DNA from: Gammaproteobacteria bacterium
GTDB taxonomy: Bacteria > Pseudomonadota > Gammaproteobacteria > Eutrophobiales > Eutrophobiaceae
Length of the DNA: 64,000 nucleotides
Reading direction: 5' to 3'
Assembly: GCA_026710545.1 (NCBI GenBank)
Contig: JAPOQU010000124.1
Span: forward strand, 124,001-188,000
Shown: piece by piece, positions 21,079-64,000 of the stretch
Numbering within the stretch: position 1 is the first letter of the stretch
Layout: each line of letters starts with the position of its first letter
Translations under genes and position numbers: made by a program
The notes under the pieces: generated by a model
Told to the model about the DNA's origin: nothing
What the model saw: the letters and a program-made list of their open reading frames with translations, nothing else
Databases searched by the model: none

Positions 21079-21223
21079 TTATCCGCAGATGACGCAGATT
21101 AACGCAGATAAAAATATATTTTGTTTTAATGGATGGTCAATAAGCACATGGAGCCTGAATTTTCATTATAGTGCTTCATGGATCAGAAAATAATCTGCGT
21201 TAATCTGCGTCATCTGCGGATAA
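21079..21223. repeat. Long perfect inverted repeat (31-bp arms, 83-nt loop)
   Basis: Left arm TTATCCGCAGATGACGCAGATTAACGCAGAT (21079-21109) and its exact reverse complement at 21193-21223. Confidence 0.97.
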
Positions 21224-22528
21224 ATCATCTGCTGATGAGACCATGTAGTTTTTCCAGGCTTGAAACTCGTGGCGGAATACGATGTCGCTGGTGCCGAGGG
21301 CCTGGGTCGTGCCATCGCCGTTATCCTGGTCGCGCCCGTAGTGGCGGTGCTGGCTCACCCACTCCAGGGCATCGGCCTGCAGACCGTGCTGGATACGGTG
21401 GTAGGCTTCGTAGTCGTCGTGCCCTGCTATGGAAAACGGAGAGAAGATCAGCTGGTTATACAGTACCGAGGTATGCAGCATGTCATCGGATACGCCGCCG
21501 AGTTTGAATGTCCAGGTTTCCTGGATAGACTTGTCGACAGCAATGGGCCGGTAAACCCGGATCGTCTGCAACGCGCTCTTGAAGGCAATACTGGGGTAAA
21601 TGATGGTGTTCTGCCGTTGCATGGCCAGGATCGAGTTGGTTTTCTCCTCGCCGTAAGCTGCCACCATATCCTGCACATATTTCGATTCGCGCGGGTAACC
21701 GATATGGATGGTGGCATTGCCGCCTGAATAAGTGTGGCCGTTGCCGCAGGTTGTCATGGCTATGGTATCGAAAAACTCGTAGCTGGAACCAAAGGGTTCG
21801 AGCATGGAGAGCGGCAGGGGTTTTTCGTCCTCGGGGAATTGCCGGGCCATTTGTTTTGCCGGTTGCCAGGCAGACTGGTGCGTAACGGCCGGATGCATGT
21901 TGTCGGACACGTTTTCCAGCAGGATTTTCCAGTTGGCGTCGTGCATATAGCGCAATACGCCGCCGGTTACCTCTATTTCACCCGTTGGTGAACGCTCAAC
22001 TGCGTTGTCGAACGAGGTAATGGCCGGTCCCAGCCAGCTTCTCAGATCCGGCCCTCGCGCTGCCTGGTTGGCAAAGATGAAGCCGCGGTAAATCTCGACG
22101 CGTGCGACCTTACGGATATTTGCCGCCGGTTTATCGCGCCCGAATACCGAATCCGCGTATCCCTCTTCCCTGGGGATATGCAACAGGTTGCCGGCAGTGT
22201 CGAACACGTAGCCGTGATAGGCGCAACGTAACTGCTGTGCATGACCGCAGGATTCACCGACCAGTTGCGCGCCCTTGTGTGCGCAGCGGTTATACATGAT
22301 ATGGACCTGGCCGTCGTTGTGCCGGGCGACGATGACAGGTTGCCTGCCGATAGTGGTGGTGAAGTAGTCTCCGGGTTTTTTTACCTGGCTTTCATGGCCG
22401 ATAAAGATCCAGGCATTGCCCCAGATACGTTCCATTTCCAGGTCGAATATGGCCGGGTCCGTATAAACACGCTTGTGTACCCGCGTGGGTTCGACCAGCG
22501 AAGCGATCTCTTGATCACTGACAGGCAT
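21200..22528 (-). CDS. Rieske non-heme iron aromatic ring-hydroxylating oxygenase, alpha subunit (ORF extends to 22624; start near 22528 preferred)
   Basis: Rieske CAHKGAQLVGESCGHAQQLRCAYH; mononuclear Fe motif ENVSDNMHPAVTH; paralogous to the 50538-51851 gene. Confidence 0.9.
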   Translation of the reverse strand: MPVSDQEIASLVEPTRVHKRVYTDPAIFDLEMERIWGNAWIFIGHESQVKKPGDYFTTTIGRQPVIVARHNDGQVHIMYNRCAHKGAQLVGESCGHAQQLRCAYHGYVFDTAGNLLHIPREEGYADSVFGRDKPAANIRKVARVEIYRGFIFANQAARGPDLRSWLGPAITSFDNAVERSPTGEIEVTGGVLRYMHDANWKILLENVSDNMHPAVTHQSAWQPAKQMARQFPEDEKPLPLSMLEPFGSSYEFFDTIAMTTCGNGHTYSGGNATIHIGYPRESKYVQDMVAAYGEEKTNSILAMQRQNTIIYPSIAFKSALQTIRVYRPIAVDKSIQETWTFKLGGVSDDMLHTSVLYNQLIFSPFSIAGHDDYEAYHRIQHGLQADALEWVSQHRHYGRDQDNGDGTTQALGTSDIVFRHEFQAWKNYMVSSADDLSADDAD

Positions 22529-22554
22529 GCTTATCGGGGAGGCATACGGCCGGG

Positions 22555-23073
22555 TTACTTGACCGCCAGTCCCAGCAGTATGGTGGTGGTGCAATGATAA
22601 ACGTTGTTGCTGGCGCCCATGCACCAGTTGATATCATTGCTCTTTGACGGAAAATAATTCGGCAGGTCGCCTTCGTTGCGGTTGCACATGCAGCGGTTGC
22701 AGGTGCTTTTACCGCAGCAGTCATTGTAGGCGATGATGTAATCGCGTCCGTCAGCGGGGTTGTTGCAGGTGCCTACCCAGGTCATTGGCGCCATTTCGGT
22801 GCCGGGCGGACAACTGGTGTGGCTGCCGCCGCAGCAGGTGCAGAGGAAGCCGTCCATGCCGCAGTTGCGCCAGTATTCACATTTGCCCGGATCGCCTTCG
22901 GGCCCGGAAATGGAACCGTCATCCGGCGCCGTGTTCGCCTTCGCTACCGGCAACAAGGGAATTGCACCTGCCCCGACCAGTACCGTCCCTGCTTTCTTCA
23001 AAAAGCTCCGGCGCGAAGTATGGCGCGCCAGGGAGCGGGTTTTGTCTTGAAACCAGCGATCAAAAAACCTCAT
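22555..23073 (-). CDS. TTQ-dependent amine dehydrogenase light (beta) chain, MauA-like
   Basis: Twin-Arg leader TSRRSFLKKAGT; CEYWRNCGMDGFLCTCCGGSHTSCPPGTEMAPMTWVGTCNNPADGRDYIIAYNDCCGK...NDINWCMGASNNVYHC; the two TTQ-forming Trp (W99, W150) are 51 residues apart. Confidence 0.92.
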   Translation of the reverse strand: MRFFDRWFQDKTRSLARHTSRRSFLKKAGTVLVGAGAIPLLPVAKANTAPDDGSISGPEGDPGKCEYWRNCGMDGFLCTCCGGSHTSCPPGTEMAPMTWVGTCNNPADGRDYIIAYNDCCGKSTCNRCMCNRNEGDLPNYFPSKSNDINWCMGASNNVYHCTTTILLGLAVK

Positions 23074-23121
23074 TATCGGCCCTCATTATCGTCGGTGGAA
23101 TAGTTGGATACCCTGCCCTGC

Positions 23122-24375
23122 CTACAGTAACGGCAGCGGTTGAACCAGGAATGGCGTGACGCCGAGTTCGCCGATTGAGCGCAGGTGTTCTCCGGAACCT
23201 GCATCATAGATATCCAGGGCGCTCAAATCCTCGGTGATGGCGTAGAGGAGCGGGTTGTCATCCTGGCTCACGGCTATTGAGAGACTTGGCTGCCTGGTAG
23301 TTATTTTTTCTACCCGCGCCCGGGTTTCCAGATCATAGACCCAGATCTCAGTTCCCGGTAATTCGTAGGTGAAGAAATCGCCCTGGTGCATCACCATGTA
23401 GAGGCGTTGCCTGGCGCTATGCAGGGTAACAGGCTGCATCCCGCCGATACGCCAGTTTTCCGCCTTGTCCTGCTCATCCAGGTAACTCCAGGTATCGGCA
23501 AAGACCGGTCCGTCTGCGGATATTTCAACAGGATGAACCTCTCCCAGCACCGACATGAAATACCAGGTATCGCCATGCCGTACGCCGGTTTCCAGGATCG
23601 GGTCCTCAAGCGCGTTGAAAAAAGGTTCGCTTCTTTGCACACTGGCTTGCGTGCCTTCATCGGTAAGGTGGATCAGCAACAGCGCACCGTCGCTGCACAG
23701 CGCAAAAAACCGCCTGTCGCCCGCGGCATAAGCCATCGCGCAACCCGGCGTTATAACTTCCCCGGCAAAACGGCGATGCTCGACATCCACGATACTCAGT
23801 GAGGCTGCCGGTGTCAGGTTGAAAACGGCCATGAACCGGTCATCGTCGGTCAATGCCGAATCAGCCAGTCTCGGCAGGGTGGATACGCGTTTGGCGGGAA
23901 TTTCTATCTCTGCGACCGGGGTTAACTTGAACGGGTCATAAATACTGACGACGTCGGTGCGTGCGCCGCGCGTATGCCTCGAATAGTAGGTTTCGGCCGA
24001 ATAGACTTCCCGGTAGTGGCCCGGTATGTTCAGCGCGTTGAAGGAGTAACCGGTACTCAGTAATCCCATCATCCGGCCCGTGTCTCCGTCATACAGGTAG
24101 GCGCGCCCGTCCGGCATTGAAGATGCCGCCATGTCGTAAATCCAGACCCAGTGCGGATGCGGCGTCTCCGGTAGCGCCGTTACCTTGCCGAAAATATCAT
24201 TGGATAAAGGCGCCTTGCTCACGTCTACATACGCGTCGCCGGCGTCGGCAGCCGTTGCAGATGAAGCGGGTTCATCTGCCGGTTGTTGCGCGTCACAACC
24301 TGCCAGTATAAGGAGAAAAAGACCGTACAGCCACAATTTTCTCCAGGAAGCAGAATATTTATCCATGGGATACAT
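23122..24375 (-). CDS. TTQ amine dehydrogenase heavy (alpha) chain, beta-propeller, predicted lipoprotein
   Basis: Immediately upstream of the light chain; FGKVTALPETPHPHWVWIYDMAASSMPDGRAYLYDGDTGRMMGLLSTGYSFNAL is MADH/AADH heavy-chain-like; lipobox LILAGC. Confidence 0.85.
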   Translation of the reverse strand: MYPMDKYSASWRKLWLYGLFLLILAGCDAQQPADEPASSATAADAGDAYVDVSKAPLSNDIFGKVTALPETPHPHWVWIYDMAASSMPDGRAYLYDGDTGRMMGLLSTGYSFNALNIPGHYREVYSAETYYSRHTRGARTDVVSIYDPFKLTPVAEIEIPAKRVSTLPRLADSALTDDDRFMAVFNLTPAASLSIVDVEHRRFAGEVITPGCAMAYAAGDRRFFALCSDGALLLIHLTDEGTQASVQRSEPFFNALEDPILETGVRHGDTWYFMSVLGEVHPVEISADGPVFADTWSYLDEQDKAENWRIGGMQPVTLHSARQRLYMVMHQGDFFTYELPGTEIWVYDLETRARVEKITTRQPSLSIAVSQDDNPLLYAITEDLSALDIYDAGSGEHLRSIGELGVTPFLVQPLPLL

Positions 24376-45248: not shown

Positions 45249-46411
45249 TCGCCTCCCCTCCCCAGGATTACCGCACTGGTACATAAACAGCGGTCATAAT
45301 TGACCATGCCGTAACCGCTCGCCATACCCGCCCGCGCGTCGGCAACCTGGTTGGACAAGGCGGTTTCGGTCAATTGCCGGATCGCTTCGACCGTACCCAG
45401 GAAACCGCCGGCAGCGCCGGCCTGTCCGGCGGACAGTTGGCCGCCGCAAGTATTATGGGGCAGACCGCCGCCGTTCCAGGTCAACGGGCGGGTGCGGACA
45501 AATTCGGCTGCTCCGCCCTTTTCACAAAAGCCCAGGTCTTCCATCTGAACCATGGATATCACCGGGTAGTCATCGTAGGTCTGCAGAAAATCCATGTCGC
45601 CAGGCCCGAGTTCAGCCTGCTCATACATCTGGTCGCGATACAGGCTCCAACCGGCGCGAAAATGCACGTCGTCATCCGGCCAGGCATTATGCCGCTCTCC
45701 CGCAGCCAGGATCCTGGCGTAAGGCAGGCCGAGCGACTCGGCCCGGGCAACCGTCATGACCAGGAAACCTTCAGCCCCGGCGACCGGCATGACACAATCG
45801 AACAGGTGCAGGGGTTCGCTGATGGGACGGGCAGCCAGGTAGTCTTGCATCGACAGCGGTTTGTTGAAAACAGCGGTACCCGCGGCCAGGGCATTCTCCC
45901 TCTGGGCGATGCAGACGCGGCCGAAATCTTCCCGCTCCGCCCCGTATTTCTCCATGTAGTTGCGGGTAATCATGGCGAAGACGGTGTTCGGTCCGCCTGC
46001 CCCGTAAGGGAACACGGCATCGGTTGAAAACCTGCTGAAGTTCTCGACCAGGTCCGCGAAGGTATCGGCTGAAGCCGTATCGGCGCCGATACAGGCGACG
46101 ATTTCAGCATCGCCGGCCTGGACTGCACGGGCCGCACGCCGGACGGCTACCGGGCCGCTGGCGCCTCCCATCGGGATCTGTTCCAGCCAGCCGGGCGAGA
46201 TATCGAGGTATTCGGTCATGCTGACAACGCTGTCGGGCACCAGGGTGAAGCTGGCTATGGCAAGACCGTCAATGTCATGTTTTTGCAGTCCCGCCCGGTC
46301 CAGCATCCGGGCGAATGCAGTTCCGGTGAACCAGGCCGCGCTGCGCTCGCTGCGCCGTTCGTACGGCAGGCTGACCGGGGCGACGAGCGCAATATCATTG
46401 TAAGGCTGCAT
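45245..46411 (-). CDS. Thiolase-superfamily protein (SCP-x/Ltp-like) without the canonical Cys
   Basis: VPDSVVSMTEYLDISPGWLEQIPMGGASGPVAVRRAARAVQAGDAEIVACIGADT; LPHNTCGGQLSAGQAGAAGGFLGTVEAIRQL. ORF extends to 46492. Confidence 0.85.
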   Translation of the reverse strand: MQPYNDIALVAPVSLPYERRSERSAAWFTGTAFARMLDRAGLQKHDIDGLAIASFTLVPDSVVSMTEYLDISPGWLEQIPMGGASGPVAVRRAARAVQAGDAEIVACIGADTASADTFADLVENFSRFSTDAVFPYGAGGPNTVFAMITRNYMEKYGAEREDFGRVCIAQRENALAAGTAVFNKPLSMQDYLAARPISEPLHLFDCVMPVAGAEGFLVMTVARAESLGLPYARILAAGERHNAWPDDDVHFRAGWSLYRDQMYEQAELGPGDMDFLQTYDDYPVISMVQMEDLGFCEKGGAAEFVRTRPLTWNGGGLPHNTCGGQLSAGQAGAAGGFLGTVEAIRQLTETALSNQVADARAGMASGYGMVNYDRCLCTSAVILGRGGE

Positions 46412-48035
46412 CTTTTCTCTTTCTCTTGCGCTCTCTGAGGTCAATACAATGACCTTCTTCCACCAGCTTGCCGGCCAGGGTCTTGATTTCACCCCGTTGC
46501 AGTTTCTGTGATGCGGTCATGGGCAACTCGGTTACAAACAGGAAGTAAGCCGGCACTTTGTAATAAATCAGCCGTTCAGTACAGAAATCGTACAAAATAC
46601 CGGCCGTAGTCTCCATGGATGCCTGTTCCGGAACGGCAGTTTCATTCAGGATTATACAGACGCCGACCTCTTCACCGCGTGTTTCATCGTATATGGGCGT
46701 TACCGCACAGTTGGCAACCGCCGGGTGCTGGAACAGGACGTTCTCCACTTCCACGGCCGCAATGTTTTCGCCGCTGCGCCGGATGATGTTCTTGCGCCGG
46801 TCTACAAAATGAAATGAGCCGTCTTCGCTGATACGGACCACGTCTCCCGTATGGAAATACCCTCCTTCCCATACCTTCGCCGTCTCCTCCCGATTTTTGT
46901 AATAACCGGAAAAAAAACCTTTGTGCGGGTTGTCGCCCCTGGCGCGGATCAGCAGTTCACCCGGTTCCCCCTCCCCGACGTCGTTACCCTCCTCGTCCAC
47001 CAGGCGGTACTCGATGACATCCGGCGCTTTGCCGATGCAGCGCGTGCCGATATGGCGCGGTTCCTTGTTGGCCGTGATGCAGACGTAGGTGCCGGTTTCC
47101 GTCATGGCCCAGCCTTCCACCAGGGGGAAGCCGAAACGCTGCTCAAAGCGTTGCAAGTGCTTGGGGTCGACACCTGCGCCGAAACCGAATTTGACCTGCT
47201 GTCCCAGGTTGTCGCCGGCCGTCTCAGGCTGGTTCAGTAAAATTGCCGGTATCACGCCGAGGTAATGCAGGCATGTCGCACTGGCCTCGCGCACTGTCTC
47301 CCACCAGGTGGAGGCATGGAAGCGGTCAAGCTGGATGATACAGCCGCCGCTCATGATCATGGCCATCATGGAGCACAGGGCATTCATATGCACCAGGGGT
47401 AACGGCGTCAGCATCCTTTCCTCCCCGTAGGTCAACCGGCAGTAACCGTCAATATCGGCGTACCACTGCCCCATGCAGGTAAAATACTCGTTGTTCAGCA
47501 TGCAGCCCTTTGGCGTCCCGGTCGTGCCTGAGGTGTAGAGTACCGCCACCTCGGTCTCCCGGTCCGGTGTGCCTGTTGCCGGTGCAGAGGCGCAGGACGG
47601 CAACTGTGACATTGATTCGGTATCGGCTATTGGTATGGCCGTGTCCCGGCCGGCCAGGACTGTCTGCACTTTTTCCCGGTAACGGGGCAGGCACAGCACG
47701 AGACAGGCGTCGCTGTGATTGATGACATAGGCGATTTCCCGCGGCAGGAAACCGGAATTGACCGGCACGACGCTGGCGCCGAGCTTGTTCAAAGCCAGGA
47801 AGTGCAGAAAGAATTCGGCCCGGTTGTCCAGCATGACGGCAACCCGCTGACCGTAGCCGTATCCTGCCCCGGCGTATTGCTCACTCAGGGTGTTGACTGC
47901 CTGCAGCGCCCGGGTATAAGTATAATCAATGGCTCCCTGGCAGTATTCCTTGCTGGCCTGGCGCGGGATGTGCAGGAACGCCTGGGTTGAGACCTTCCCT
48001 ACGGTTTTCAGAAATTCGGCGTAAACGGTAGTCAT
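46395..48035 (-). CDS. AMP-dependent acyl-CoA ligase (CaiC-like)
   Basis: AVLYTSGTTGTPKGCMLN, EGWAMTETG, YFHTGDVVRISEDGSFHFVDRRKNIIRRSGENIAAVEVE. Confidence 0.92.
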   Translation of the reverse strand: MTTVYAEFLKTVGKVSTQAFLHIPRQASKEYCQGAIDYTYTRALQAVNTLSEQYAGAGYGYGQRVAVMLDNRAEFFLHFLALNKLGASVVPVNSGFLPREIAYVINHSDACLVLCLPRYREKVQTVLAGRDTAIPIADTESMSQLPSCASAPATGTPDRETEVAVLYTSGTTGTPKGCMLNNEYFTCMGQWYADIDGYCRLTYGEERMLTPLPLVHMNALCSMMAMIMSGGCIIQLDRFHASTWWETVREASATCLHYLGVIPAILLNQPETAGDNLGQQVKFGFGAGVDPKHLQRFEQRFGFPLVEGWAMTETGTYVCITANKEPRHIGTRCIGKAPDVIEYRLVDEEGNDVGEGEPGELLIRARGDNPHKGFFSGYYKNREETAKVWEGGYFHTGDVVRISEDGSFHFVDRRKNIIRRSGENIAAVEVENVLFQHPAVANCAVTPIYDETRGEEVGVCIILNETAVPEQASMETTAGILYDFCTERLIYYKVPAYFLFVTELPMTASQKLQRGEIKTLAGKLVEEGHCIDLRERKRKRKDAALQ

Positions 48036-49923: not shown

Positions 49924-50541
49924 CTACAGATAGATGAGGATATTTTCCAGCGGCGCATCGCAGTTGAGCAGGTCGACGCGCTTGGCGGCAATCCTGATTT
50001 CATCTCCGCTGACGACCAGCCTGTGTGTGTAGGAACCGGCAAATACGTCCTGTTTTTCACGCCGGTACTGCAGCATGATAAAGCGCGAGGTTACCAGGCA
50101 TTCTCCCGTGGTCTCATCAAAGTTGTCCAGTATGACGTTGCTTACCAGGTGTACGCTGCGCGGTCCGGGTTGCAGGGAAAAGGCGTTTGGGTGTTTGTAG
50201 CGTTTCACGCGCACGGCCCTGAGCAATCCCGTCTCGTAAATTAACGAGATGTGATTTTTCGGGTCCGGTTGCCCCGGCGTTGCCGGTATCCAGTACTCGG
50301 CATCTTCCAGGTACAGGTCGTTCCACTCTTCCCAGCGCTGTTCATCCAGCAGGCGCGCCTCGTGGAACAGGAACTGTTCCAGGGTCCCGGGATCAGGTGG
50401 ATTGAGCGGTTGTCCGGTCTGCACAGGGGTACTGTCCTGTTCGGAATTTATTCCAGTCTGCATAAGGGCGCTGTCCTGTCCGGGAAAGAAGCCGGTCTCT
50501 GTAGTTTTGATGAAATGTCGGTGCGTGAACCGTGGTGTCAC
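49924..50541 (-). CDS. Aromatic ring-hydroxylating dioxygenase beta subunit
   Basis: QFLFHEARLLDEQRWEEWNDLYLEDAEYWIPATPGQ; VTSRFIMLQYRREKQDVFAGSYTHRLV; adjacent to an alpha subunit. Confidence 0.92.
   Translation of the reverse strand: MTPRFTHRHFIKTTETGFFPGQDSALMQTGINSEQDSTPVQTGQPLNPPDPGTLEQFLFHEARLLDEQRWEEWNDLYLEDAEYWIPATPGQPDPKNHISLIYETGLLRAVRVKRYKHPNAFSLQPGPRSVHLVSNVILDNFDETTGECLVTSRFIMLQYRREKQDVFAGSYTHRLVVSGDEIRIAAKRVDLLNCDAPLENILIYL
50414..50486. repeat. Imperfect direct repeat (about 33 bp x2) inside the N-terminus of the beta-subunit ORF
   Basis: CCGGTCTGCACAGGGGTACTGTCCTGTTCGGAA vs CCAGTCTGCATAAGGGCGCTGTCCTGTCCGGGAA; encodes QDSALMQTG / QDSTPVQTG. Confidence 0.75.
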
Positions 50542-51851
50542 CCGGCACTGGCCATGTAATCTTTCCAGGTCTGGAACTGGTGGCGAAAGACCATGTCGGA
50601 TGTGCCCGCCGAGTGTTTTGTCCCGTCCTCTTCAACTTCTTCCTTGCCCAGGAAACGGTGCTGGCTCACCCACTCATTGCCGTCCTGAATCTGCAAACCG
50701 GATTGCAGCCGGTGGTAGGCCTCGTAATCATCGGGGCCGACCAGGTTGGCATGGGAATTAATCAGGTTGCAGTAAGTGATGGAACGCTGGAACAATTCCT
50801 CCGGCGCCCCTACCTGCCGGAACACCCATGATTCGATAACGGTCCTGTCTACGGCCACGGGTTTCACAACGCGTATCGAGGTGATTGCGCCCTTCAGGGT
50901 AAAACTGGGATAAACCACGGTGTTATGGCGGTTTACTGCGAGGATCTCCCGTGCTTTCTGCTCTCCGTACTTGTCTGTCAGGGCATCCATGTAACCGGGA
51001 ATGGGTGAATAAGCCGAATGGATGCTGAATTTGCCGCCGGTGACGCTGTGCCCGTAATTCCAGGCGGTCAACCCCATCTTTTCAAAAAAATCGTAGTTGT
51101 TGGTAAACGGCGCCAGCATCTCCAGTTCAAAGGGTACCGGGTCCCCTTCCTTCAGGCGCTCATCGAATACCCGTTTGGCAGTGCCGCTGGAAGACTGGTG
51201 CACCACCATGGGATGCATGGCGTCGTTCAGGTTTTCCACGAACATCTTCCAGTTTGAGTCATGCAGGTAGCGGAAACAGCCGCCGGCTATCTCAATACGG
51301 CCTTCTGGCGACCGTTCCACCAGGTTGTCTATGGAGACCGCTGCGCCGCTCAACCAGGTTTTCAAATCAGGGCCTTCCGGGGCCAGGCTGGCGAATACCA
51401 GGCCGTGGTAGCTGTCTACCCGCGGGACCTGCTGCATATTTGATTCCGGGTTGCCCTTGCCGAACCCGGCGCCGTTGTAACCTTCTTCCCTGGGTATGTG
51501 GAGCAGCGTGCCGTCGGTATCGAAGACATAGCCGTGATAGCTGCAGCGCAATTGCTGTGCGTTACCGCGACTGTCGCCGATCACCTGCGCCCCCTTGTGG
51601 CTGCAACGGTTGAACAGCACGTGAACCCTGCTGTCCTTGTGGCGGGTCATCACCACCGGTTGCCGTCCTACGCTCGTGGCGAAATAATCACCGGGCTGTT
51701 GTACCTGGCTGTCGTGGCCCACGTAGATCCAGGACCTGTTCCAGATGCGTTCCATCTCCAGGTCAAAAATGTCGGGATCGGTATAGACTTTTTTATGCAC
51801 GGAATCTTCCCTTATCAATCCGGCCAGCTGCTCATTGGAATAATGTGACAT
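50538..51851 (-). CDS. Rieske aromatic ring-hydroxylating dioxygenase alpha subunit
   Basis: CSHKGAQVIGDSRGNAQQLRCSYH Rieske motif, ENLNDAMHPMVVH iron motif. Confidence 0.95.
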   Translation of the reverse strand: MSHYSNEQLAGLIREDSVHKKVYTDPDIFDLEMERIWNRSWIYVGHDSQVQQPGDYFATSVGRQPVVMTRHKDSRVHVLFNRCSHKGAQVIGDSRGNAQQLRCSYHGYVFDTDGTLLHIPREEGYNGAGFGKGNPESNMQQVPRVDSYHGLVFASLAPEGPDLKTWLSGAAVSIDNLVERSPEGRIEIAGGCFRYLHDSNWKMFVENLNDAMHPMVVHQSSSGTAKRVFDERLKEGDPVPFELEMLAPFTNNYDFFEKMGLTAWNYGHSVTGGKFSIHSAYSPIPGYMDALTDKYGEQKAREILAVNRHNTVVYPSFTLKGAITSIRVVKPVAVDRTVIESWVFRQVGAPEELFQRSITYCNLINSHANLVGPDDYEAYHRLQSGLQIQDGNEWVSQHRFLGKEEVEEDGTKHSAGTSDMVFRHQFQTWKDYMASAG

Positions 51852-51940: not shown

Positions 51941-52102
51941 AGCCCGGATGTCACGGTAGGTGATGCGATGATTGCGCCGGATTTTATGCGCCTGCGGGTG
52001 CCTGCGACCGAAAGCATAGCCGTAGCTCTGGTTGAGGAAGCACGTGCCCGCAGGCGCATAAAAGACAAGCAAGGGCGGATTACCTACCGTGACATCCGGG
52101 CT
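51941..52102. repeat. 162-bp inverted-repeat element (21-bp perfect outer arms, 17-bp perfect inner arms)
   Basis: AGCCCGGATGTCACGGTAGGT (51941-51961) / ACCTACCGTGACATCCGGGCT (52082-52102); TTTTATGCGCCTGCGGG (51982-51998) / CCCGCAGGCGCATAAAA (52047-52063). Confidence 0.95.
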
Positions 52103-54468
52103 ATGGCTACGGCCAGCATTTCCTGCGGGTCGGGTGGTTTTGCATTGGTTCTCAGTTCAATTTCTTCCCGGTTAATTCTTTCGGCATTCATCTCTGCCGC
52201 GAATTTTCCCGCAGCGTATTGATCAGGCCAGTACTGTTCCCGGTAACCGTAACGGGCGGCGGCATTCAGGACGAACTGCGGTTCGTTCATGATCGGGCGC
52301 GCCAGGGCCACCAGGTCGGTTCTTCCCGCGGCAACCAGGGTGTTGACCTGGTCTGCGCTGGTGATATTGCCTGCGACGATGGTCGGCATACCCATTTCAT
52401 TGCGGATCCGGTCGGCAAACGGCGCCTGGTACATGCGGCCGTAAACCGGTTCCTCGTGGCTGACGACCTGGCCCGTGGAAACGTTGATGATATCGGCGCC
52501 GTTCTCCTTTAACAGATGCACCAGAGCCGTCAAATCCTGTCCGGACAAGCCGTCGCTGATCCAGTCCGTCGCTGAAATTCTTACCGAAATGGGCCGTTCC
52601 GGCGGCCAGGCCTGGCGGACTGTCTGCACTATGCGCAGCGGATAGCGGGCCCGGTTTTTGATGCCGCCGCCATATTCGTCGGTGCGCCGGTTGGTATAAG
52701 GACTGATGAACGAAGATAACAAATAGCCGTGTGCCAGGTGTATTTCGAGCATGTCAAAGCCGGCGGCCAGCGCATTCCTGGTGGCATTGAGAAAGTCCGC
52801 TTCAATCCTGTCCATGTCGTCTCCGGACATTTGCCGGGGTATCCTGCTGTGTTTCAGGTAAGGTAACGGAGATGGGGCGACGATCTCCCAGGCATGTTCC
52901 GGCATGGGTTCGTCGATTCCCCCCTGCCATGGGATGCAGGTCGCCCCCTTGCGGCCGGCATGGCCGATTTGCCCGCACACCTTCGCCCTGCTGTTGGCAT
53001 GGATGAACGCGGTGATTCGGCGCCATTGTTCCGTCTGTTCGTCATTCCACAGGCCTGCGCAGCCTGTTGTAATCCGTCCATCTGCCGATGTGCACAGCAT
53101 TTCCGTGCTGACGATCCCCGCGCCGCCTATGCCGCGGGAGCCGTAATGAACGAAATGCCAGTCACCAGGAACGCCGTCGGTTGCGCAGTATTGGCACATT
53201 GCGGATAGCTGGACCCGGTTTTCAACGCGCATGCTGCCGATCCTGAACGGCTGGAACATCGGCGCCGCGGGGTTTTCCATATCTATGTCATCGTACCCCG
53301 TCAGCCTGCGGGTATGCCCGGCAAACCACTTGTCCATGGCGCGGATAAAGCCGGGATCGCGTAAACCCAGGTTGTCGTAGGTCACGCGTTTTGAGCGCAC
53401 CATCATGTTGAAGGTAAACTGCTCTGCATCCTGTTGCGCGTAGCGGTCGATATTTTCGAACCAGTGCAGGCTGGTGACGGCAGTCCGCTGCAACCGGTCC
53501 GCCTCGGGTTTGCGCGCCTGCTGGTAGGTTTCCAGCGCGGCGCCGACCCGGTTGCCCTGCTCCCGGAAGATGTCTGCCAGGGTAATGGCGTCTTCCATGG
53601 CCAGCTTGGTGCCGGAACCGATGGAGAAATGCGCCGAGCGCCCCGCATCACCCAGCAACACGATGTTGTTGTAATAAAGACTGGCATTCCTCACCACCGG
53701 GAATCCCCGCCAGAGTGACCGGTTGGTGATGATGGGATGACCCTGCAGGTCCTTGCTGAAGACCTCTTCGATATAACGTTTTGTATCCTCTTCGGAGAAC
53801 GCATCCATGCCGGCGTTCATCCAGGTCTCGTGGCTGCATTCCACGATCCAGGTCGACATGCCCTCTTCATAGCGGTACCCGTGTACCCACCACCAGCCGT
53901 GTTCGTTCCTGCGGAAAATAAAGATAAAACTGTCCAGGGACAAGGTGGTAGCCAGCCAGCAGAAGCGATTGGGGCGCCAGTCCAGCCTGGTGCCGAACTC
54001 CTCGGCGTAGGCGCTACGCAGGATGGAGGTAATGCCGTCACCGGCGACCACCAGGTCGTGCTTGTCGATCTCCAGTTGCGCCAGGTCGGTGATATCGGTA
54101 TTGAATTCCAGGTTTACGCCCAGTTCATCACAACGGTCGTGGAGGGCGTTGAGCAACTTCAGGCGCGACATGCCGCAGAACCCGTGACCGCCGCTGATCA
54201 CTTTTGTATCGTGTATACGGGTCTCTATCTTGTCCCAGTAGGCGAACTGCTCGACGATGCGCTTGTAACTGGGCGCATCAGCTTCCATGAAGCCGCGCAG
54301 GGTTTCATCGGAAAATACCACGCCGAACCCCCAGGTAGCGTCACGAGGGCCACGCTCGATCACGGTAATATCGTGCGCGGGATCAGCTTTTTTCATCAGG
54401 AGGGAGAAATACAGCGAAGCAGGCCCTCCGCCGAGACAGACAATTTTCAGACCGTTCATGTAAGACAC
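52084..54468 (-). CDS. Bifunctional salicylyl-CoA 5-hydroxylase/oxidoreductase (2-aminobenzoyl-CoA monooxygenase/reductase type; FAD monooxygenase + OYE fusion)
   Basis: N-terminal KIVCLGGGPASLYFSLLMKKADPAHDITVIERGPRDATWGFGVVFSDETL; C-terminal OYE domain FQPFRIGSMRVENRVQLSAMCQYCATDGVPGDWHFVHYGSRGIGG..HLAHGYLLSSFISPYTNRRTDEYGG. Confidence 0.92.
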   Translation of the reverse strand: MSYMNGLKIVCLGGGPASLYFSLLMKKADPAHDITVIERGPRDATWGFGVVFSDETLRGFMEADAPSYKRIVEQFAYWDKIETRIHDTKVISGGHGFCGMSRLKLLNALHDRCDELGVNLEFNTDITDLAQLEIDKHDLVVAGDGITSILRSAYAEEFGTRLDWRPNRFCWLATTLSLDSFIFIFRRNEHGWWWVHGYRYEEGMSTWIVECSHETWMNAGMDAFSEEDTKRYIEEVFSKDLQGHPIITNRSLWRGFPVVRNASLYYNNIVLLGDAGRSAHFSIGSGTKLAMEDAITLADIFREQGNRVGAALETYQQARKPEADRLQRTAVTSLHWFENIDRYAQQDAEQFTFNMMVRSKRVTYDNLGLRDPGFIRAMDKWFAGHTRRLTGYDDIDMENPAAPMFQPFRIGSMRVENRVQLSAMCQYCATDGVPGDWHFVHYGSRGIGGAGIVSTEMLCTSADGRITTGCAGLWNDEQTEQWRRITAFIHANSRAKVCGQIGHAGRKGATCIPWQGGIDEPMPEHAWEIVAPSPLPYLKHSRIPRQMSGDDMDRIEADFLNATRNALAAGFDMLEIHLAHGYLLSSFISPYTNRRTDEYGGGIKNRARYPLRIVQTVRQAWPPERPISVRISATDWISDGLSGQDLTALVHLLKENGADIINVSTGQVVSHEEPVYGRMYQAPFADRIRNEMGMPTIVAGNITSADQVNTLVAAGRTDLVALARPIMNEPQFVLNAAARYGYREQYWPDQYAAGKFAAEMNAERINREEIELRTNAKPPDPQEMLAVAIARMSR

Positions 54469-54846: not shown

Positions 54847-55359
54847 TTACAGGACGTCTTCAAGGCGCGACCTGACTGTTTTCAATAACCGTACCAGTTC
54901 TTCCTGTTCGTTGGTATCCAGGACATTCAGTATTTCATGAGTCCAGCGCTCGTGGTCCGGCGCCATCCTGTTGAACAGTTCAGCGCCTTTTCCGGTCAGG
55001 CAAATATTGTGAATTCGCTTGTCCGCCGTGTGCTGGTGCCTGATGATAAGTTCGTCCTGTTCCATCCTGTCGAGCAGGCGGGTGATATTCCCTTTGGACG
55101 CCAGCAGCTTGCCGGCCAGCACCGAAATACTCAAGCCTTCCTTGCCGGCAAGGTCCAGGTGCGCAAGCACGTCAAACCTCGACAGGGAACTGTTATAGTG
55201 CTGGCGCAACCGGTCCGACATGATCTGGTCCAGCTTTTTCGAACACTTGAGCAGGTAAAGCCAGGCCCGTAACGAGCGTTTGGAACCGCTCTCGGTGTTA
55301 TCCGCAGAGGCTGTTGCCAGTCCTGCCTGTGGTGTGTCTGCCAAGGTGTGATTCCTCAA
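54847..55359 (-). CDS. MarR family transcriptional regulator
   Basis: HLDLAGKEGLSISVLAGKLLASKGNITRLLDRMEQDELIIRHQHTADKRIHNICLTGKG. Confidence 0.93.
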   Translation of the reverse strand: MRNHTLADTPQAGLATASADNTESGSKRSLRAWLYLLKCSKKLDQIMSDRLRQHYNSSLSRFDVLAHLDLAGKEGLSISVLAGKLLASKGNITRLLDRMEQDELIIRHQHTADKRIHNICLTGKGAELFNRMAPDHERWTHEILNVLDTNEQEELVRLLKTVRSRLEDVL

Positions 55360-55748
55360 TCCGGTATAACCGCCGTCGTTTCTATTTCCACCTTTGCCTG
55401 CTCCTCAATCAATGCAGAGACTTGCAGCATGGCCATGGCCGGGTAATTGTTGCCCATGATGTCCCGGTAGACGCGACCGATATCTTTCAGGGAAGACTGG
55501 TACTCCTGCTTGTCGAGAATATACCAGGTCATCCTGGTTACGTGTTCGGGCCTTGCGCCTGCCTCCGCCAGGACCGCTACCGTGTTCAGCAACGTCTGAC
55601 GGACCTGTTCGGCGAGATTGTCACTGAGGATATATTCATTTCTATCCCAGCCGATCTGACCCGCGACAAAGACCATTTTCCCCTGTGCTGCAATTCCGTT
55701 GGAATAGCCTTTGGGCCTGGGCCAGTCCGGTGGTTGTAAAATTTGCAT
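55356..55748 (-). CDS. RidA superfamily protein (non-canonical)
   Basis: GYSNGIAAQGKMVFVAGQIGWD...NYPAMAMLQVSALIEEQAKVEIETTAVI. ORF extends to 55778. Confidence 0.88.
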   Translation of the reverse strand: MQILQPPDWPRPKGYSNGIAAQGKMVFVAGQIGWDRNEYILSDNLAEQVRQTLLNTVAVLAEAGARPEHVTRMTWYILDKQEYQSSLKDIGRVYRDIMGNNYPAMAMLQVSALIEEQAKVEIETTAVIPD

Positions 55749-55793
55749 TGACGTTATCCTTGGTGATGATACTGACACAGCCGAATTATAACC

Positions 55794-55951
55794 GGAATTA
55801 CGAATTACGAATTAAGAATTACGAATGAACGTGCCGCCTGCGGCGGCTGTATATCAATGTGTCTCAGGCTTTCCCCAGGCTGGATCAAAGTACACTGTGA
55901 TATAGCACCCCCAATTGGTAATTCGTAATTCTTAATTCTTAATTTATAATT
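55794..55951. repeat. AATTC/AATTA palindromic repeat, copy 2
   Basis: Left arm GGAATTACGAATTACGAATTAAGAATTACGAAT, right arm ATTGGTAATTCGTAATTCTTAATTCTTAATTTATAATTG. Confidence 0.88.
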
Positions 55952-56005: not shown

Positions 56006-57739
56006 ATGAAACCCTATTTTGAGAGGATGCAACGGTTTGGCAAAGAGCTTAAGCAAGGCCGGATCAAGCGTGCGTCTGCAAGCATGGAACAGCTCAAACA
56101 GGTTGAAGCGGAAATCGGGCAACTGAAGAAAGGCGTCGAGGATGCGGGGTTTTCCACTGAGCAGATAAACAAGCGCGGCGCCATGACCGTATGGCAGCGC
56201 CTGGAATACCTGGTAGACCCGGGCACCTGGCGGCCGTTGCACAGCCTTTACAATCCCATGGACAACGCCAACGGGGCAACCAACGTGGTCGACGGCCTCG
56301 CCAGGGTGGCCGGACGCTGGGCGGTCGTGATTGGTTTTGACAACAAGGTGCTGGCGGGGGCCTGGTTGCCGGGACAGTCTGAAAACATACTGCGCGTCAC
56401 CGATCTTGCCGCCCGCCTCCATATCCCCCTGATCTGGCTGGTCAACTGCAGCGGGGTCAAGCTGGATGAACAGGAAAAGTTCTACGCCAACCGGCGCGGG
56501 TCGGGCACGCCCTTTTACCGCCATGCTGAATTGAACCAATTGGGGATCCCCGTCCTTGCAGGTATCTACGGGACCAACCCTGCCGGCGGTGGATATCAAG
56601 GCATCAGTCCCACCATACTCCTGGCCCATAAAGACGCCAACATTGCCGTTGGTGGTGTCGGTATCGTCTCGGGCATGTCGCCGAGAGGGGGATTCAGCGC
56701 GGAGATGCTGGAAGACCTGGTCGAAAAAACCCGCACGTTCAGCGCCAAGCCGCCGGGCCGCGTTGAGACTCATTACCATGAGACCGGGTTTTTCTCGGAA
56801 GTCTTCGAGGAAGAAACCGAAGTGCTCGGCGGCATCCGCGATTACATGGATGCCATACCTGCATACAAGCCCCGTTTTTTCCGTGTTTCCGAACCTGCGG
56901 AACCTGCTTTTCCATCCGCAGACCTGTATTCCCTGCTGCCCTTTAACCCGAAGGAGGTCTATTCATTCGACGAGATTCTGGCCCGGTTGGTGGATGCCAG
57001 CGAACACATGGAATTCCGCCCGGATTACGGCCCCGAGGTCTATACGGGGTTGTGCAGGATTGACGGGTTCCTGGTCGGTTGCATAGGCAACCGTTCCGGC
57101 TACCTGGGCAAAGGCTACCCGGAATACGCCGATTACCCGGGCATGGGCGGTAAACTCTATCGCCAGGGACTGATAAAGATGAACGAGTTCGTCACCCATT
57201 GCGGCCGTGACCGCATACCTGTCATCTGGCTCCAGGACACCTCGGGCATCGACGTGGGCGACCTGGCGGAAAAAGCCGAACTGCTCGGACTGGGCCAGTC
57301 CCTGATATATTCCATACAGCAGACGGACCTGCCCATGATGCTCGTCGTCCTGCGCAAGGGTACGGCGGCGGCCCATTACCTGATGGGAGGACCGACCGCC
57401 AACCGGCATAATGCGTTTACCCTGGGCACGCCGGCAACGGAGATCGCGGTCATGCACGGAGAGACCGCGGCGGTTGCCATGTACTCGAGGCGCGCCGTCA
57501 AGGAGAAAGACGCCGGCAGGCCGCTGGATGAGGTTGCCGATAAGATGAACACGCTGGCAGAGCAATACCGGCAGCATTCCAGACCTGAGTATTGTGCCCG
57601 TTACGGACTGGTGGATGAGGTGGTGGAACTGGCGGACTTAAGGAATTATCTTACGGCTTTTGCCGGCGCGGCATACCAGAACCCTCGCTCCATCTGTCCG
57701 AAACACCAGATGATACTGCCCAGGCTCATAAAGAATTAA
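56006..57739 (+). CDS. gcdA: Glutaconyl-CoA decarboxylase alpha subunit-like carboxyltransferase
   Basis: 577 aa carboxyltransferase; WRPLHSLYNPMDNANGATNVVDGLARV, RRGSGTPFYRHAELNQLGIPVLAGIYGTNPAGGGYQGISPT, RQGLIKMNEFVTHCGRDRIPVIWLQDTSGIDVGDLAEKAELLGLGQSLIYSIQ closely match Acidaminococcus GcdA as recalled. Confidence 0.85.
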   Translation: MKPYFERMQRFGKELKQGRIKRASASMEQLKQVEAEIGQLKKGVEDAGFSTEQINKRGAMTVWQRLEYLVDPGTWRPLHSLYNPMDNANGATNVVDGLARVAGRWAVVIGFDNKVLAGAWLPGQSENILRVTDLAARLHIPLIWLVNCSGVKLDEQEKFYANRRGSGTPFYRHAELNQLGIPVLAGIYGTNPAGGGYQGISPTILLAHKDANIAVGGVGIVSGMSPRGGFSAEMLEDLVEKTRTFSAKPPGRVETHYHETGFFSEVFEEETEVLGGIRDYMDAIPAYKPRFFRVSEPAEPAFPSADLYSLLPFNPKEVYSFDEILARLVDASEHMEFRPDYGPEVYTGLCRIDGFLVGCIGNRSGYLGKGYPEYADYPGMGGKLYRQGLIKMNEFVTHCGRDRIPVIWLQDTSGIDVGDLAEKAELLGLGQSLIYSIQQTDLPMMLVVLRKGTAAAHYLMGGPTANRHNAFTLGTPATEIAVMHGETAAVAMYSRRAVKEKDAGRPLDEVADKMNTLAEQYRQHSRPEYCARYGLVDEVVELADLRNYLTAFAGAAYQNPRSICPKHQMILPRLIKN

Positions 57740-57762
57740 TCGCAGCAGGTAATACCGAACAC

Positions 57763-57891
57763 ATGGAACAGGCCCTGGAAGTTTTCTTTAACGGTATCGG
57801 CGGCGTATTTGCCGGCATTGCGATGTTGTATCTCAGCATCAGGTTGATTTCCCTGATGGCTGACAGGCAGGCAGAGGACAAGGAAGAGTAA
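57763..57891 (+). CDS. 42-aa OadG/GcdD-like small membrane subunit (not in the ORF track)
   Basis: MEQALEVFFNGIGGVFAGIAMLYLSIRLISLMADRQAEDKEE; single TM with charged tail; TAATG overlap with the following beta subunit gene. Confidence 0.75.
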   Translation: MEQALEVFFNGIGGVFAGIAMLYLSIRLISLMADRQAEDKEE

Positions 57892-58994
57892 TGGCGTTCA
57901 TCGAAAACATGGGATTACTGGCCGTCACGCCCGGCCTGGTGTTGATGTGGGTCATCGGCCTGACCCTGATCTACCTGGCCGTTACCAGGCAGTATGAACC
58001 GCTGCTGTTATTGCCGATAGGGTTTGGCATCCTGCTTGCCAACCTGCCGTTGACCCAGTTGCTGGACCCCGGGGAGGGTCTGCTCTGGCGCTTTTACCAT
58101 CACGGGATAGAATGGCGCATCCTGCCGCCGTTGATCTTCCTCGGCCTCGGCGCGTTGACCGATTTCGGTCCATTGCTCTCGCAACCGCGCCTTATCTTCC
58201 TGGGCGCCGGCGCCCAGGTGGGTGTATACCTCACTTTTTTCCTGGCTTTCGGCCTGGGTTTCAGCCTGGAAGACGCGGCCGCCATCAGCATAATCGGCGG
58301 CGCGGACGGGCCGACGACCATCTTTCTGGCCGCGCAACTGGCGCCGCACCTGCTCGGCGCCTGTGCGGTGGCGGCCTATTCCTACATGGCGCTGGTGCCC
58401 ATCATCCAGCCGCCTGTCATGCGCCTGTTGACGACTGAAAGTGAACGAAAGATCCGCATGGGTAAAGGCCGCAAGGTCGGTTCCAGGGAGAAGTTGCTGT
58501 TCCCCATCACGGCCGCCCTGGTCATTATACTCATGGTGCCGGCCTCGGCGCCCCTGGTGTCCATGTTCATGCTGGGCAACCTGTTCCGTGAATCCGGCGT
58601 GGTCGAACGCTTGAGCGATGTTGCGCAGAATTCCCTGATGAATATCGCGACTATCTTCCTCGGCATCAGTGTCGGCGCCACCATGACGGCAGACACTTTT
58701 TTGCGCGCCGATGTTATTCTTATTTTCATACTGGGCCTGCTGGCATTTATGATCAGCACGGCCAGCGGCATCCTCCTGGCCAAGCTGATGAACCTGTTTA
58801 CCACGAACAAGATTAATCCCCTGGTCGGCGCCGCAGGCGTATCTGCAGTACCGATGGCGGCACGGGTCGTCCAGAAAATCGGCGCACAGGCAGATAAAAA
58901 GAATTACCTGCTCATGTTTGCCATGGGGCCCAATATTGCCGGCGTTATCGGCACGGTCATAGCAGCCGGTATATTTTTAACAATGTTGCAATAA
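57891..58994 (+). CDS. gcdB: Sodium ion-translocating decarboxylase beta subunit (OadB/GcdB)
   Basis: FYHHGIEWRILPPLIFLGLGALTDFGPLLSQPRLIFLGAGAQVGVYLTFFLAFGLGFSLEDAAAISIIGGADGPTTIFLA; NPLVGAAGVSAVPMAARVVQKIG. Confidence 0.95.
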   Translation: MAFIENMGLLAVTPGLVLMWVIGLTLIYLAVTRQYEPLLLLPIGFGILLANLPLTQLLDPGEGLLWRFYHHGIEWRILPPLIFLGLGALTDFGPLLSQPRLIFLGAGAQVGVYLTFFLAFGLGFSLEDAAAISIIGGADGPTTIFLAAQLAPHLLGACAVAAYSYMALVPIIQPPVMRLLTTESERKIRMGKGRKVGSREKLLFPITAALVIILMVPASAPLVSMFMLGNLFRESGVVERLSDVAQNSLMNIATIFLGISVGATMTADTFLRADVILIFILGLLAFMISTASGILLAKLMNLFTTNKINPLVGAAGVSAVPMAARVVQKIGAQADKKNYLLMFAMGPNIAGVIGTVIAAGIFLTMLQ

Positions 58995-59010
58995 ACCACG
59001 GAGAAAAGTA

Positions 59011-59232
59011 ATGACGGAAGAAGTACTGGCCCCGTTGTCAGGAACCATCTGGAAAGTCACGGTCGCTATCGATGAAGCGATTGAAGAAGATGATGAAGTG
59101 TTAATCCTGGAAGCATTGAAAATGGAAACGCCGATCTATGCCCCCTGTGACGGCAAGGTGAAGGAGATTCATGTAAAGGAAGGTGATACCGTGGAGGAAG
59201 ATCAACTGCTGATATCCATCGAGACTGAATAA
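59011..59232 (+). CDS. gcdC: Biotin carrier protein subunit
   Basis: 73-aa biotinyl domain VLAPLSGTIWKVTVAIDEAIEEDDEVLILEALKMETPIYAPCDGKVKEIHVKEGDTV. Confidence 0.92.
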   Translation: MTEEVLAPLSGTIWKVTVAIDEAIEEDDEVLILEALKMETPIYAPCDGKVKEIHVKEGDTVEEDQLLISIETE

Positions 59233-59245
59233 CAGGGAGGCAACC

Positions 59246-60403
59246 ATGTTTTTTGATTTAACCGAAGAGCAGCGCCTGGTACAGGATACGGCCCGAAGAT
59301 TCGCCCTGGAGGATATCGCCCCCACACTCGAAGAAGAGGAAAAAAACCACGAATTCAAGCTCGAGCGCGTGGCAAAAATGGGCGAACTCGGCTTTTTTTC
59401 ATGTGTGCTGCCGGAGCAACTGGGCGGCAACGGGATGGGCTTCCTGGAATCCGTACTCATGGCTGAACAGGTTGGCCAGGTATCCGCTTCCTGGCGTTTG
59501 CCGTTCAACATGCAGAATCTCGGTGCGCCTTTATCGGTTGCCAGGTACGGTACGGACGAACAGAAAGAGAAGTATATTTCCGGCTGGATCGACGGCACGA
59601 AAATAGGTTTCTTCGCCATGACCGAGCCTGATACGGGCTCCGACGTTGCCAGCATGAAGACCCATGCCATCAACATGGGCGATCATTATGAACTGCACGG
59701 CAGTAAGATCTGGATTTCAAATGCCCACATAGGCGACGCCGGCTTGCTGTATGCCTATACGGACAGGGAAAAAGGCAACAAGGGGATCAGTTGCTTTATC
59801 ATCGAACCCAAGAACCTGGAAGGATGCAGCGCCCGGCCCATCGAGACCAAACTGGGATTGCACTGTTCCCCGACCGGTGAGTTTGTCTTTGAGGGCGCAC
59901 GCGTCCCCAAAGATGCGTTGCTCGGCGAGGTGAACAACGGCTTCAGGATGTGCATGTGGCAGTTGAACAATACCCGCATCGGTTGTGCCGCAGGCGCCCT
60001 GGGTGTGGCCGGCGGCGCCCTGCAGCTTGCCATCGACTACGCCAACGAGCGCCAACAGTTCGGCAAGCCCATATCCCGCCACCAGATGGTCCAGTCCCAG
60101 ATTGCAGACATGGTGCTGGAACACCAGGCTGCGCAGTTGCTGGTGTACAAGGCGGCCTGGCTGAAAGACCAGGGCAAACCCAACCAGTACGAGACTTCCG
60201 TGGCTAAACTTGCCGCATCCGAGGCGGCCGTGCATGCGGCAAACGAATGCATGAAGATATTCGGCTCATACGGTTACTCCACGGAATACCCGGCAGAGCG
60301 GTTCTACCGCGACGCCAAGTCGCTGCAGGTGGTGGAAGGGACATCCAATATACAGAAGGTAATCATCGCCGGAATGGCCTGCGGGCACACGCCCAATCGT
60401 TGA
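59246..60403 (+). CDS. Acyl-CoA dehydrogenase (candidate non-decarboxylating glutaryl-CoA dehydrogenase)
   Basis: FFAMTEPDTGSDVASMKTHAI, LGLHCSPTGEFVFEGARVPKDALLG, YANERQQFGKPISRHQMVQ, IFGSYGYSTEYPAERFYRDAKSLQVVEGTSNIQ. Confidence 0.93.
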   Translation: MFFDLTEEQRLVQDTARRFALEDIAPTLEEEEKNHEFKLERVAKMGELGFFSCVLPEQLGGNGMGFLESVLMAEQVGQVSASWRLPFNMQNLGAPLSVARYGTDEQKEKYISGWIDGTKIGFFAMTEPDTGSDVASMKTHAINMGDHYELHGSKIWISNAHIGDAGLLYAYTDREKGNKGISCFIIEPKNLEGCSARPIETKLGLHCSPTGEFVFEGARVPKDALLGEVNNGFRMCMWQLNNTRIGCAAGALGVAGGALQLAIDYANERQQFGKPISRHQMVQSQIADMVLEHQAAQLLVYKAAWLKDQGKPNQYETSVAKLAASEAAVHAANECMKIFGSYGYSTEYPAERFYRDAKSLQVVEGTSNIQKVIIAGMACGHTPNR

Positions 60404-63400: not shown

Positions 63401-64000
63401 ATGAGCACCCTGAAGGACAAACACGTGGTAATTACCGGCGGCGGCAGGGGTATAGGCGCGGCGATTGCAGATGAGATGAATCGGCTGGGCGCCAGGATTA
63501 CCCTGATGGGACGGGCGGAAGGAGCCTTGCATTCCAAGGCGAAACAACTGGATCGTTCATACTGTGTCCAGGTTGACGTAACTGATGACAAAGCCGTACA
63601 AGCAGGATTTGACGAAGCGGTAGCCGGGTTCGGTCCCGTTGATATCCTGGTGAACAATGCCGGAGCGGCTTTCAGCAGTCCGTTTGTTCGTGTCGACAGC
63701 AGGAACTGGGAGCAGGCAATAGCCGTCAATCTGAATGGTGTGTTTTACTGCAGCAGGCAGGCACTGGGCGGCATGCTGGAGGCCGATTGGGGCCGGATAG
63801 TCAATATCGCCAGCACTGCCGGGCTCACCGGCTATGCTTACGTTTCGGCGTATTGTGCAGCCAAGCACGGCGTCATCGGCCTGACCCGCTCGCTGGCGCT
63901 GGAACTGGCGGGGACCGGCATTACCGTCAATGCCATCTGTCCGGGTTATACCAATACCGACTTGATAACCGGGGCGATAACCACGATTATGGATAAAACC
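63401..64000 (+). CDS. SDR family oxidoreductase (partial, runs off the right edge)
   Basis: MSTLKDKHVVITGGGRGIGAAIADEMNRLGARITLMGR...NNAGAAFSSPF...STAGLTGYAYVSAYCAAKHGVIGLTRSLALELAGTGITVNAICPGYTNTDL; absent from the ORF track because it is open-ended. Confidence 0.92.
   Translation, partial: MSTLKDKHVVITGGGRGIGAAIADEMNRLGARITLMGRAEGALHSKAKQLDRSYCVQVDVTDDKAVQAGFDEAVAGFGPVDILVNNAGAAFSSPFVRVDSRNWEQAIAVNLNGVFYCSRQALGGMLEADWGRIVNIASTAGLTGYAYVSAYCAAKHGVIGLTRSLALELAGTGITVNAICPGYTNTDLITGAITTIMDKT

Follow-up and report, generated by a model that had tools for sequence, protein, structure and literature searches.

A putative Na+-motive glutaconyl-CoA decarboxylase operon with a glutaryl-CoA dehydrogenase of the non-decarboxylating type in a gammaproteobacterium predicted to respire oxygen

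The split route, in which a dehydrogenase works together with a Na+ pump, has been assigned to obligate anaerobes and the decarboxylating glutaryl-CoA dehydrogenase (GCDH) to facultative ones (PMC5852087), and PMC2881705 describes the Na+-decarboxylases as a family confined to anaerobic bacteria. What, then, would an operon of this kind do in a gammaproteobacterium that is predicted to respire oxygen? The operon in question, gcdA-gcdD-gcdB-gcdC-acd, lies at 56006-60403 on the + strand of a 64,000-nucleotide stretch of DNA (hereafter the window; contig JAPOQU010000124.1 of assembly GCA_026710545.1, positions 124,001 to 188,000) from a member of the Eutrophobiaceae. We consider it likely that the operon carries out a split glutaryl-CoA oxidation with Na+-motive decarboxylation, and that it replaces canonical GCDH. 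The split reaction itself is well supported by the sequence comparisons given below; the substrate, the direction of the reaction and the feeding pathway are putative. An earlier note on this stretch had proposed that glutaryl-CoA oxidation is divided into a dehydrogenation and a Na+-motive decarboxylation, a proposal which the clade of GcdA, the residues of Acd and the missing GCDH all favour. The five open reading frames (ORFs) of the operon, all without frameshifts, are the following:

56006-57739, + strand: gcdA, carboxyltransferase subunit of glutaconyl-CoA decarboxylase, 577 aa (phmmer, tree, Ka/Ks)
57763-57891, + strand: gcdD, putative small subunit for membrane anchoring (delta/OAD gamma-like), 42 aa (sub-threshold PF04277, conserved position)
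57891-58994, + strand: gcdB, predicted Na+-translocating carboxybiotin decarboxylase, 367 aa (TIGR01109, OadB alignment)
59011-59232, + strand: gcdC, biotin carrier subunit without a long Ala/Pro linker, 73 aa (PF00364, ALKMET)
59246-60403, + strand: acd, putative glutaryl-CoA dehydrogenase of the non-decarboxylating type, 385 aa (3mpi, NF045552, residues)

The spacings between these genes are, in order, 23, -1, 16 and 13 nt, the second being the overlap TAATG of gcdD and gcdB. Coordinates, strand and spacings thus agree with the five co-directional genes with short gaps or overlaps that had been described, and Pfam and NCBIfam recover the OAD_beta-type subunit, the biotin domain, the carboxyltransferase and the acyl-CoA dehydrogenase of that description, the 42-aa ORF matching below threshold only. 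Compared with the relative L004, the ratio of non-synonymous to synonymous substitution rates (Ka/Ks) is 0.047 for gcdA, 0.10 for gcdB, 0.043 for gcdC and 0.034 for acd; because these values lie at 0.03-0.10, the four genes are maintained under strong purifying selection.

Concerning the alpha subunit, GcdA contains a carboxyltransferase domain (PF01039, 322 bits), and in phmmer comparisons it matches the two solved GcdA proteins with 750 (1pix) and 708 bits (3gf3), versus at most 151 bits for the next-best class, PCC/MCC, which are partners of a biotin carboxylase. Its score with the MmdA model is 119 bits, the cut-off being 999. A 78-row tree puts the window's GcdA inside a 34-row clade, all of whose rows are beta- or gammaproteobacterial except for one that is acidobacterial; this clade is nested among the GcdA of Desulfobacterales, Spirochaetota, Fibrobacterota and Rokubacteria. 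Both characterised GcdA proteins fall within the wider family, and the PCC/MCC-like carboxyltransferases form a distant outgroup. On these grounds the subunit is assigned to the GcdA type, and not to PCC, MCC, MmdA or OadA, which is the placement that the earlier note had expected. Of the window ORFs read, which were those with a length of 150 aa or more, none encodes a biotin carboxylase, again as had been claimed.

The best PDB match of Acd is 3mpi, the non-decarboxylating GDHDes of Desulfococcus multivorans (344 bits). In a tree of 65 rows the two share a 34-row clade (SH-like approximate likelihood-ratio test, SH-aLRT, 99), and the beta- and gammaproteobacterial Acd form a subfamily of their own. 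Wischgoll et al. 2010 reportedly found that the Tyr beside the catalytic Glu of GCDH is Val in the non-decarboxylating type. Acd possesses Arg84, Val363 and Glu364, so that Val precedes the catalytic Glu; Val is found before Glu in every member of the Acd/GDHDes clade having that region, and Tyr in all canonical GCDH (16/16). The canonical signatures YRSxMSVQSS and TYEGTxDIH are both missing from Acd. In canonical GCDH the Tyr hydrogen-bonds the substrate-binding Arg and touches the carboxylate which leaves as CO2 (PMC3169403). Tree placement and pocket residues, by which the earlier note had wished the two types of enzyme to be separated, therefore both group Acd with GDHDes. Acd probably works like GDHDes, as a member of a sister subfamily rather than as the NF045552 equivalog itself, with glutaryl-CoA as its putative substrate. 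An acidobacterial Acd encoded beside gcdA (L048, ORF 1181-2383) keeps the Val and has Gly for the substrate-binding Arg; its substrate is possibly a different one.

The predicted Na+ pump is represented by GcdB, GcdC and GcdD. GcdB, the product of the only OAD_beta gene of the genome, matches PF03977 (OAD_beta) with 513 bits and TIGR01109 with 493 bits (cut-off 190.6), and its residues were judged by alignment to the Salmonella OadB structure 6iva. In that protein Asp203, Ser382 and Asn412 make up the Na+ site, and Glu40, Arg304 and Asn311 are essential (PMC7274780). GcdB keeps the equivalents of all six, as well as those of Tyr229, Asn373 and Gly377, which are important in Klebsiella, so that 9/9 residues reported as essential or as severely affecting OadB function are present. 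Relative to OadB, Asn392 is replaced by Gln and Ser419 by Thr, and the region matching domain E is shortened; domain E is poorly conserved and is missing from some organisms (PMC7274780). GcdC contains PF00364 (59 bits) with the biotinylation motif ALKMET. GcdD matches PF04277 (OAD_gamma) with an E-value of 9e-5 and 23.5 bits, below the cut-off of 27, and a gcdD-like ORF is found at the same position in L003, L004, L006, L062 and L064. We infer Na+ coupling of the Gcd complex, for which the support from sequence is good. The idea that Na+-NQR might point to a Na+ economy was dropped, as the window's genome has no match over its cut-off.

The genome of the window (4.43 Mb) is rated 100% complete. 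A search of it with canonical GCDH, which the earlier note had suggested, returned other acyl-CoA dehydrogenases at no more than 33% identity, none with the GCDH signatures. COX1-family (heme-copper oxidase) matches over the cut-off number four, and oxygenase genes abound in the window; the organism is therefore predicted to respire oxygen. The oxygenase-rich, nirBD-bearing context that had been described for the locus was confirmed. Supply through anaerobic benzoyl-CoA chemistry is unsupported, since the best match to a BamA-type hydrolase in the genome reaches 54 bits against a cut-off of 464. A kynureninase is encoded in the genome (412 bits, over the cut-off), and a second kynureninase-like gene (G000:C124:109513-110490; 98 bits, below the curated cut-off) lies about 14 kb before the start of the window.

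The distribution of these enzymes was surveyed in 58 genomes, that of the window included. True GcdA is found in 12 of them, all of the window's family, and canonical GCDH in 12 others; none of the 12 sampled family genomes having GcdA contains canonical GCDH. As a statistic this mutual exclusion was set aside (P is about 0.04 when relatedness is ignored, but 0.19 for the family taken by itself), and it is given as description only; more widely it fails, because betaproteobacteria have both enzymes. Across the class, GcdA is present in two of 370 sampled genomes, both of the window's family. The same Acd/GcdA subfamily also occurs in metagenome-assembled genomes (MAGs) of betaproteobacteria and other gammaproteobacteria, these MAG relatives being uncultured, and the five-gene arrangement is not unique to the window's genome. 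Between beta- and gammaproteobacteria, Acd and GcdA are 72-79% identical and GcdB only 50-53% (gcdB of L008, L021, L024, L055 and L034); the greater divergence of GcdB suggests that the pump subunits were recruited separately, in a modular way. A gcdA gene was also seen in NZ_CP084075.1, a 2.1-Mb Fusobacterium vincentii record labelled as a plasmid, which looks like a misfiled chromosome.

In the proposed mechanism, Acd, an FAD-containing acyl-CoA dehydrogenase, would convert glutaryl-CoA to glutaconyl-CoA; it would release no CO2, because Val replaces the Tyr that aids decarboxylation in canonical GCDH. Glutaconyl-CoA would then be decarboxylated through biotin to crotonyl-CoA, and GcdB, anchored with GcdD, would decarboxylate carboxybiotin in the membrane and export Na+, by analogy with OAD up to two ions per turnover. 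The free energy available is about -30 kJ/mol (PMC7145394). The glutaryl-CoA would most likely come from the surrounding aerobic CoA-thioester pathway (for example from anthranilate derived from tryptophan) and/or from amino acids: ring opening and shortening of a C7 aromatic acyl-CoA may yield it, or it may stem from the catabolism of tryptophan and lysine. The genes which point to such a pathway are these:

46395-48035, - strand: AMP-forming acyl-CoA ligase (conserved in L001, L003, L004 and L040)
49924-50541 (beta) and 50538-51851 (alpha), - strand: BenAB-like Rieske ring-hydroxylating oxygenase (PF00866, PF00355, PF00848)
52084-54468, - strand: ABMR-type bifunctional flavin monooxygenase/reductase of the 2-aminobenzoyl-CoA or salicylyl-CoA type (PRK08255, 1039 bits, cut-off 1078)
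54847-55359, - strand: MarR-family regulator (PF01047)
55356-55778, - strand: RidA-family enamine/imine deaminase, divergent from gcdA (Rid family match)
63401-64000, + strand: SDR dehydrogenase, running past the end of the window
64209-65015 and 65018-66193 (window-equivalent positions): ECH and ACAD, beyond the window, after the SDR gene

An ABMR cluster with the order ABMR-SDR-MarR-ECH-ACAD-ligase-thioesterase-RidA is found on a plasmid of the alphaproteobacterium Paroceanicella, and the identities to it are 70% for ECH, 64% for ACAD, 53% for RidA, 47% for SDR, 46% for ABMR and 36% for MarR. Because genes on both flanks match this cluster, the acd-gcd operon sits inside a split ABMR cluster, with nirBD between the operon and the right-hand SDR gene. 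The ECH-ACAD pair also follows acd in L004, and the Rieske pair is kept next to gcdA in L001, L003 and L004. In a Ramlibacter MAG (L021) ABMR, ECH, RidA, gcdD and gcdB lie on one strand, with about 40 nt from RidA to gcdD, and this run is convergent with gcdC-acd-gcdA; in L055 and L024 a gene of the 3-oxoadipyl-CoA thiolase type is located near gcdB. These are independent links of the pump to dicarboxylyl-CoA or anthraniloyl-CoA catabolism. In Arthrobacter a metabolite fitting cyclohexanedione-carboxyl-CoA has been detected (PMC3534580). We read the operon as a putative Na+-motive module that completes an aerobic pathway leading to glutaryl-CoA. That in oxygen-respiring beta- and gammaproteobacteria the Na+-motive biotin decarboxylase is the last module specifically of the oxygen-dependent ABMR ring-cleavage pathway is a more tentative proposal, which we hold to be somewhat less likely than not. 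If true, glutaryl-CoA and glutaconyl-CoA would belong to the lower ABMR pathway, the description of which is incomplete, and an energy-conserving decarboxylation at the membrane would be kept even where oxygen respiration is available. A strict partnership of ABMR with gcd was rejected, several gcd-bearing relatives being without ABMR. In a relative of the same genus (L125, G005 C134) the ABMR copy contains one in-frame TAA and is perhaps a decaying gene.

Several observations count against the reading that the operon splits glutaryl-CoA oxidation at the end of such a pathway. Most Acd of the Desulfobacterota type are only 45-49% identical to that of the window, which also misses the NF045552 equivalog cut-off (428 vs 470 bits). 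ABMR is absent from the gcd-bearing relatives G004, G023 and G033, the operon of G004 (L004) having the Rieske and RidA genes without it. Betaproteobacterial MAGs (L008, L011, L021 and L055) hold canonical GCDH beside acd-gcdA, so that in them substrates other than glutaryl-CoA may be used as well. Caution over the substrate of Acd is real, since ThnO, which is 45% identical to GDHDes, acts on another dicarboxylyl-CoA (PMC11659651). It is thus conceivable, if unlikely, that Acd and Gcd act with the same Na+-motive logic on a different dicarboxylyl-CoA, such as a substituted glutaryl-CoA from the neighbouring ABMR/Rieske pathway; the separate beta/gamma subfamily of Acd, the GCDH retained by betaproteobacteria and the case of ThnO are all in keeping with this. 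Against it, Arg84, Val363 and a conserved Asn of the pocket loop agree with GDHDes, GcdA is close to the characterised GcdA proteins, and the genome has no other GCDH for glutaryl-CoA.

The other explanations concern what the complex does rather than what it acts on. Decarboxylation without Na+ coupling has a precedent in Geobacter bemidjiensis, for which it was proposed and which has acd and gcdA but none of the other subunits (PMC2996986), and it would fit the lack of a Na+-NQR match over the cut-off; with the B, C and putative D subunits complete in one operon, the Na+-site residues all conserved and gcdB under purifying selection, it is very improbable here. An even slimmer chance is left for the complex running in reverse, in which case crotonyl-CoA would be carboxylated to glutaconyl-CoA at the expense of a Na+ gradient and Acd would reduce the product to glutaryl-CoA for biosynthesis. 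In principle such decarboxylases can work in either direction, and Syntrophus has been described as an oxidizer/synthesizer of benzoate that employs this enzyme (PMC7145394), but the operon has catabolic neighbours (ligase, oxygenases, ECH, ACAD, thiolase-like), and genes for respiration are present. A biotin-dependent acyl-CoA carboxylase or methylmalonyl-CoA decarboxylase shares the carboxyltransferase fold, but the scores and the tree placement of GcdA described above, together with the lack of a linked biotin carboxylase among the ORFs read, rule it out for practical purposes.

Some further features lie in or near this region. Just upstream of gcdA, two 31-nt inverted repeats (55796-55826 and 55921-55951; 90% complementary, 94 nt apart) are rich in GAATTACGAATTA units and resemble a small miniature transposable element. 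At 22555-24375 on the - strand, matches to the light chain (PF02975, 169 bits) and the heavy chain (PF06433, 165 bits) of methylamine dehydrogenase suggest a tryptophan-tryptophylquinone amine dehydrogenase; a second Rieske alpha subunit (21200-22624) adjoins them.

Compared with known systems, all enzyme types of the operon have been described before. The Na+-translocating glutaconyl-CoA decarboxylases of Acidaminococcus fermentans, Clostridium symbiosum and Fusobacterium have the same GcdA/B/C set and a D subunit, of which GcdD is the putative counterpart, with full-length homology of GcdA, and share the biotinylation motif and the Na+-site residues. These fermenters obtain glutaconyl-CoA from glutamate via 2-hydroxyglutaryl-CoA, whereas the window has acd in the operon, a GcdC without the long Ala/Pro linker and a host predicted to respire oxygen. 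GDHDes (3mpi/3mpj) is of the same clade as Acd, with the carboxylate Arg, Val for Tyr and the partnership with gcdA in common; the window's Acd differs in its separate beta/gamma subfamily, its score below the NCBIfam equivalog cut-off and a host with oxidases and oxygenases. In Geobacter bemidjiensis acd adjoins gcdA, as in the window, but the genome is without gcdB, gcdC and gcdD and its authors infer no Na+ pump (PMC2996986). Transcripts of acd and gcdBC from a nitrate-reducing benzene culture place the split route outside a sulfate-reducing or syntrophic setting (PMC5852087); they come from a Peptococcaceae-dominated community with anaerobic benzoyl-CoA chemistry, unlike the single genome studied here, with its oxygenases and a BamA match below the cut-off.

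Concerning the module in gamma- or betaproteobacteria or in sponge symbionts, nothing on point was found in the open-access literature, which is weak evidence of absence. The novelty appears to lie in the setting, a genome whose genes predict oxygen respiration and include no canonical GCDH, in an Acd subfamily of its own and in the tie to an aromatic pathway that depends on oxygen. A complete set of genes kept by selection in a genome that has oxidases and oxygenases but lacks the usual GCDH would break the rule that reserves this route for anaerobes. As for the ABMR pathway, known from Azoarcus evansii and from clusters in Paroceanicella and Arthrobacter Rue61a, genes of the same kinds (ABMR, RidA, MarR, SDR, ECH, ACAD and ligase) lie around the window's operon, whereas the described clusters that were compared contain no Na+-pumping decarboxylase. 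The steps after ABMR have so far been described only as beta-oxidation, and the operon would give this aerobic anthraniloyl-CoA pathway a concrete end point by way of glutaryl-CoA, glutaconyl-CoA and crotonyl-CoA.

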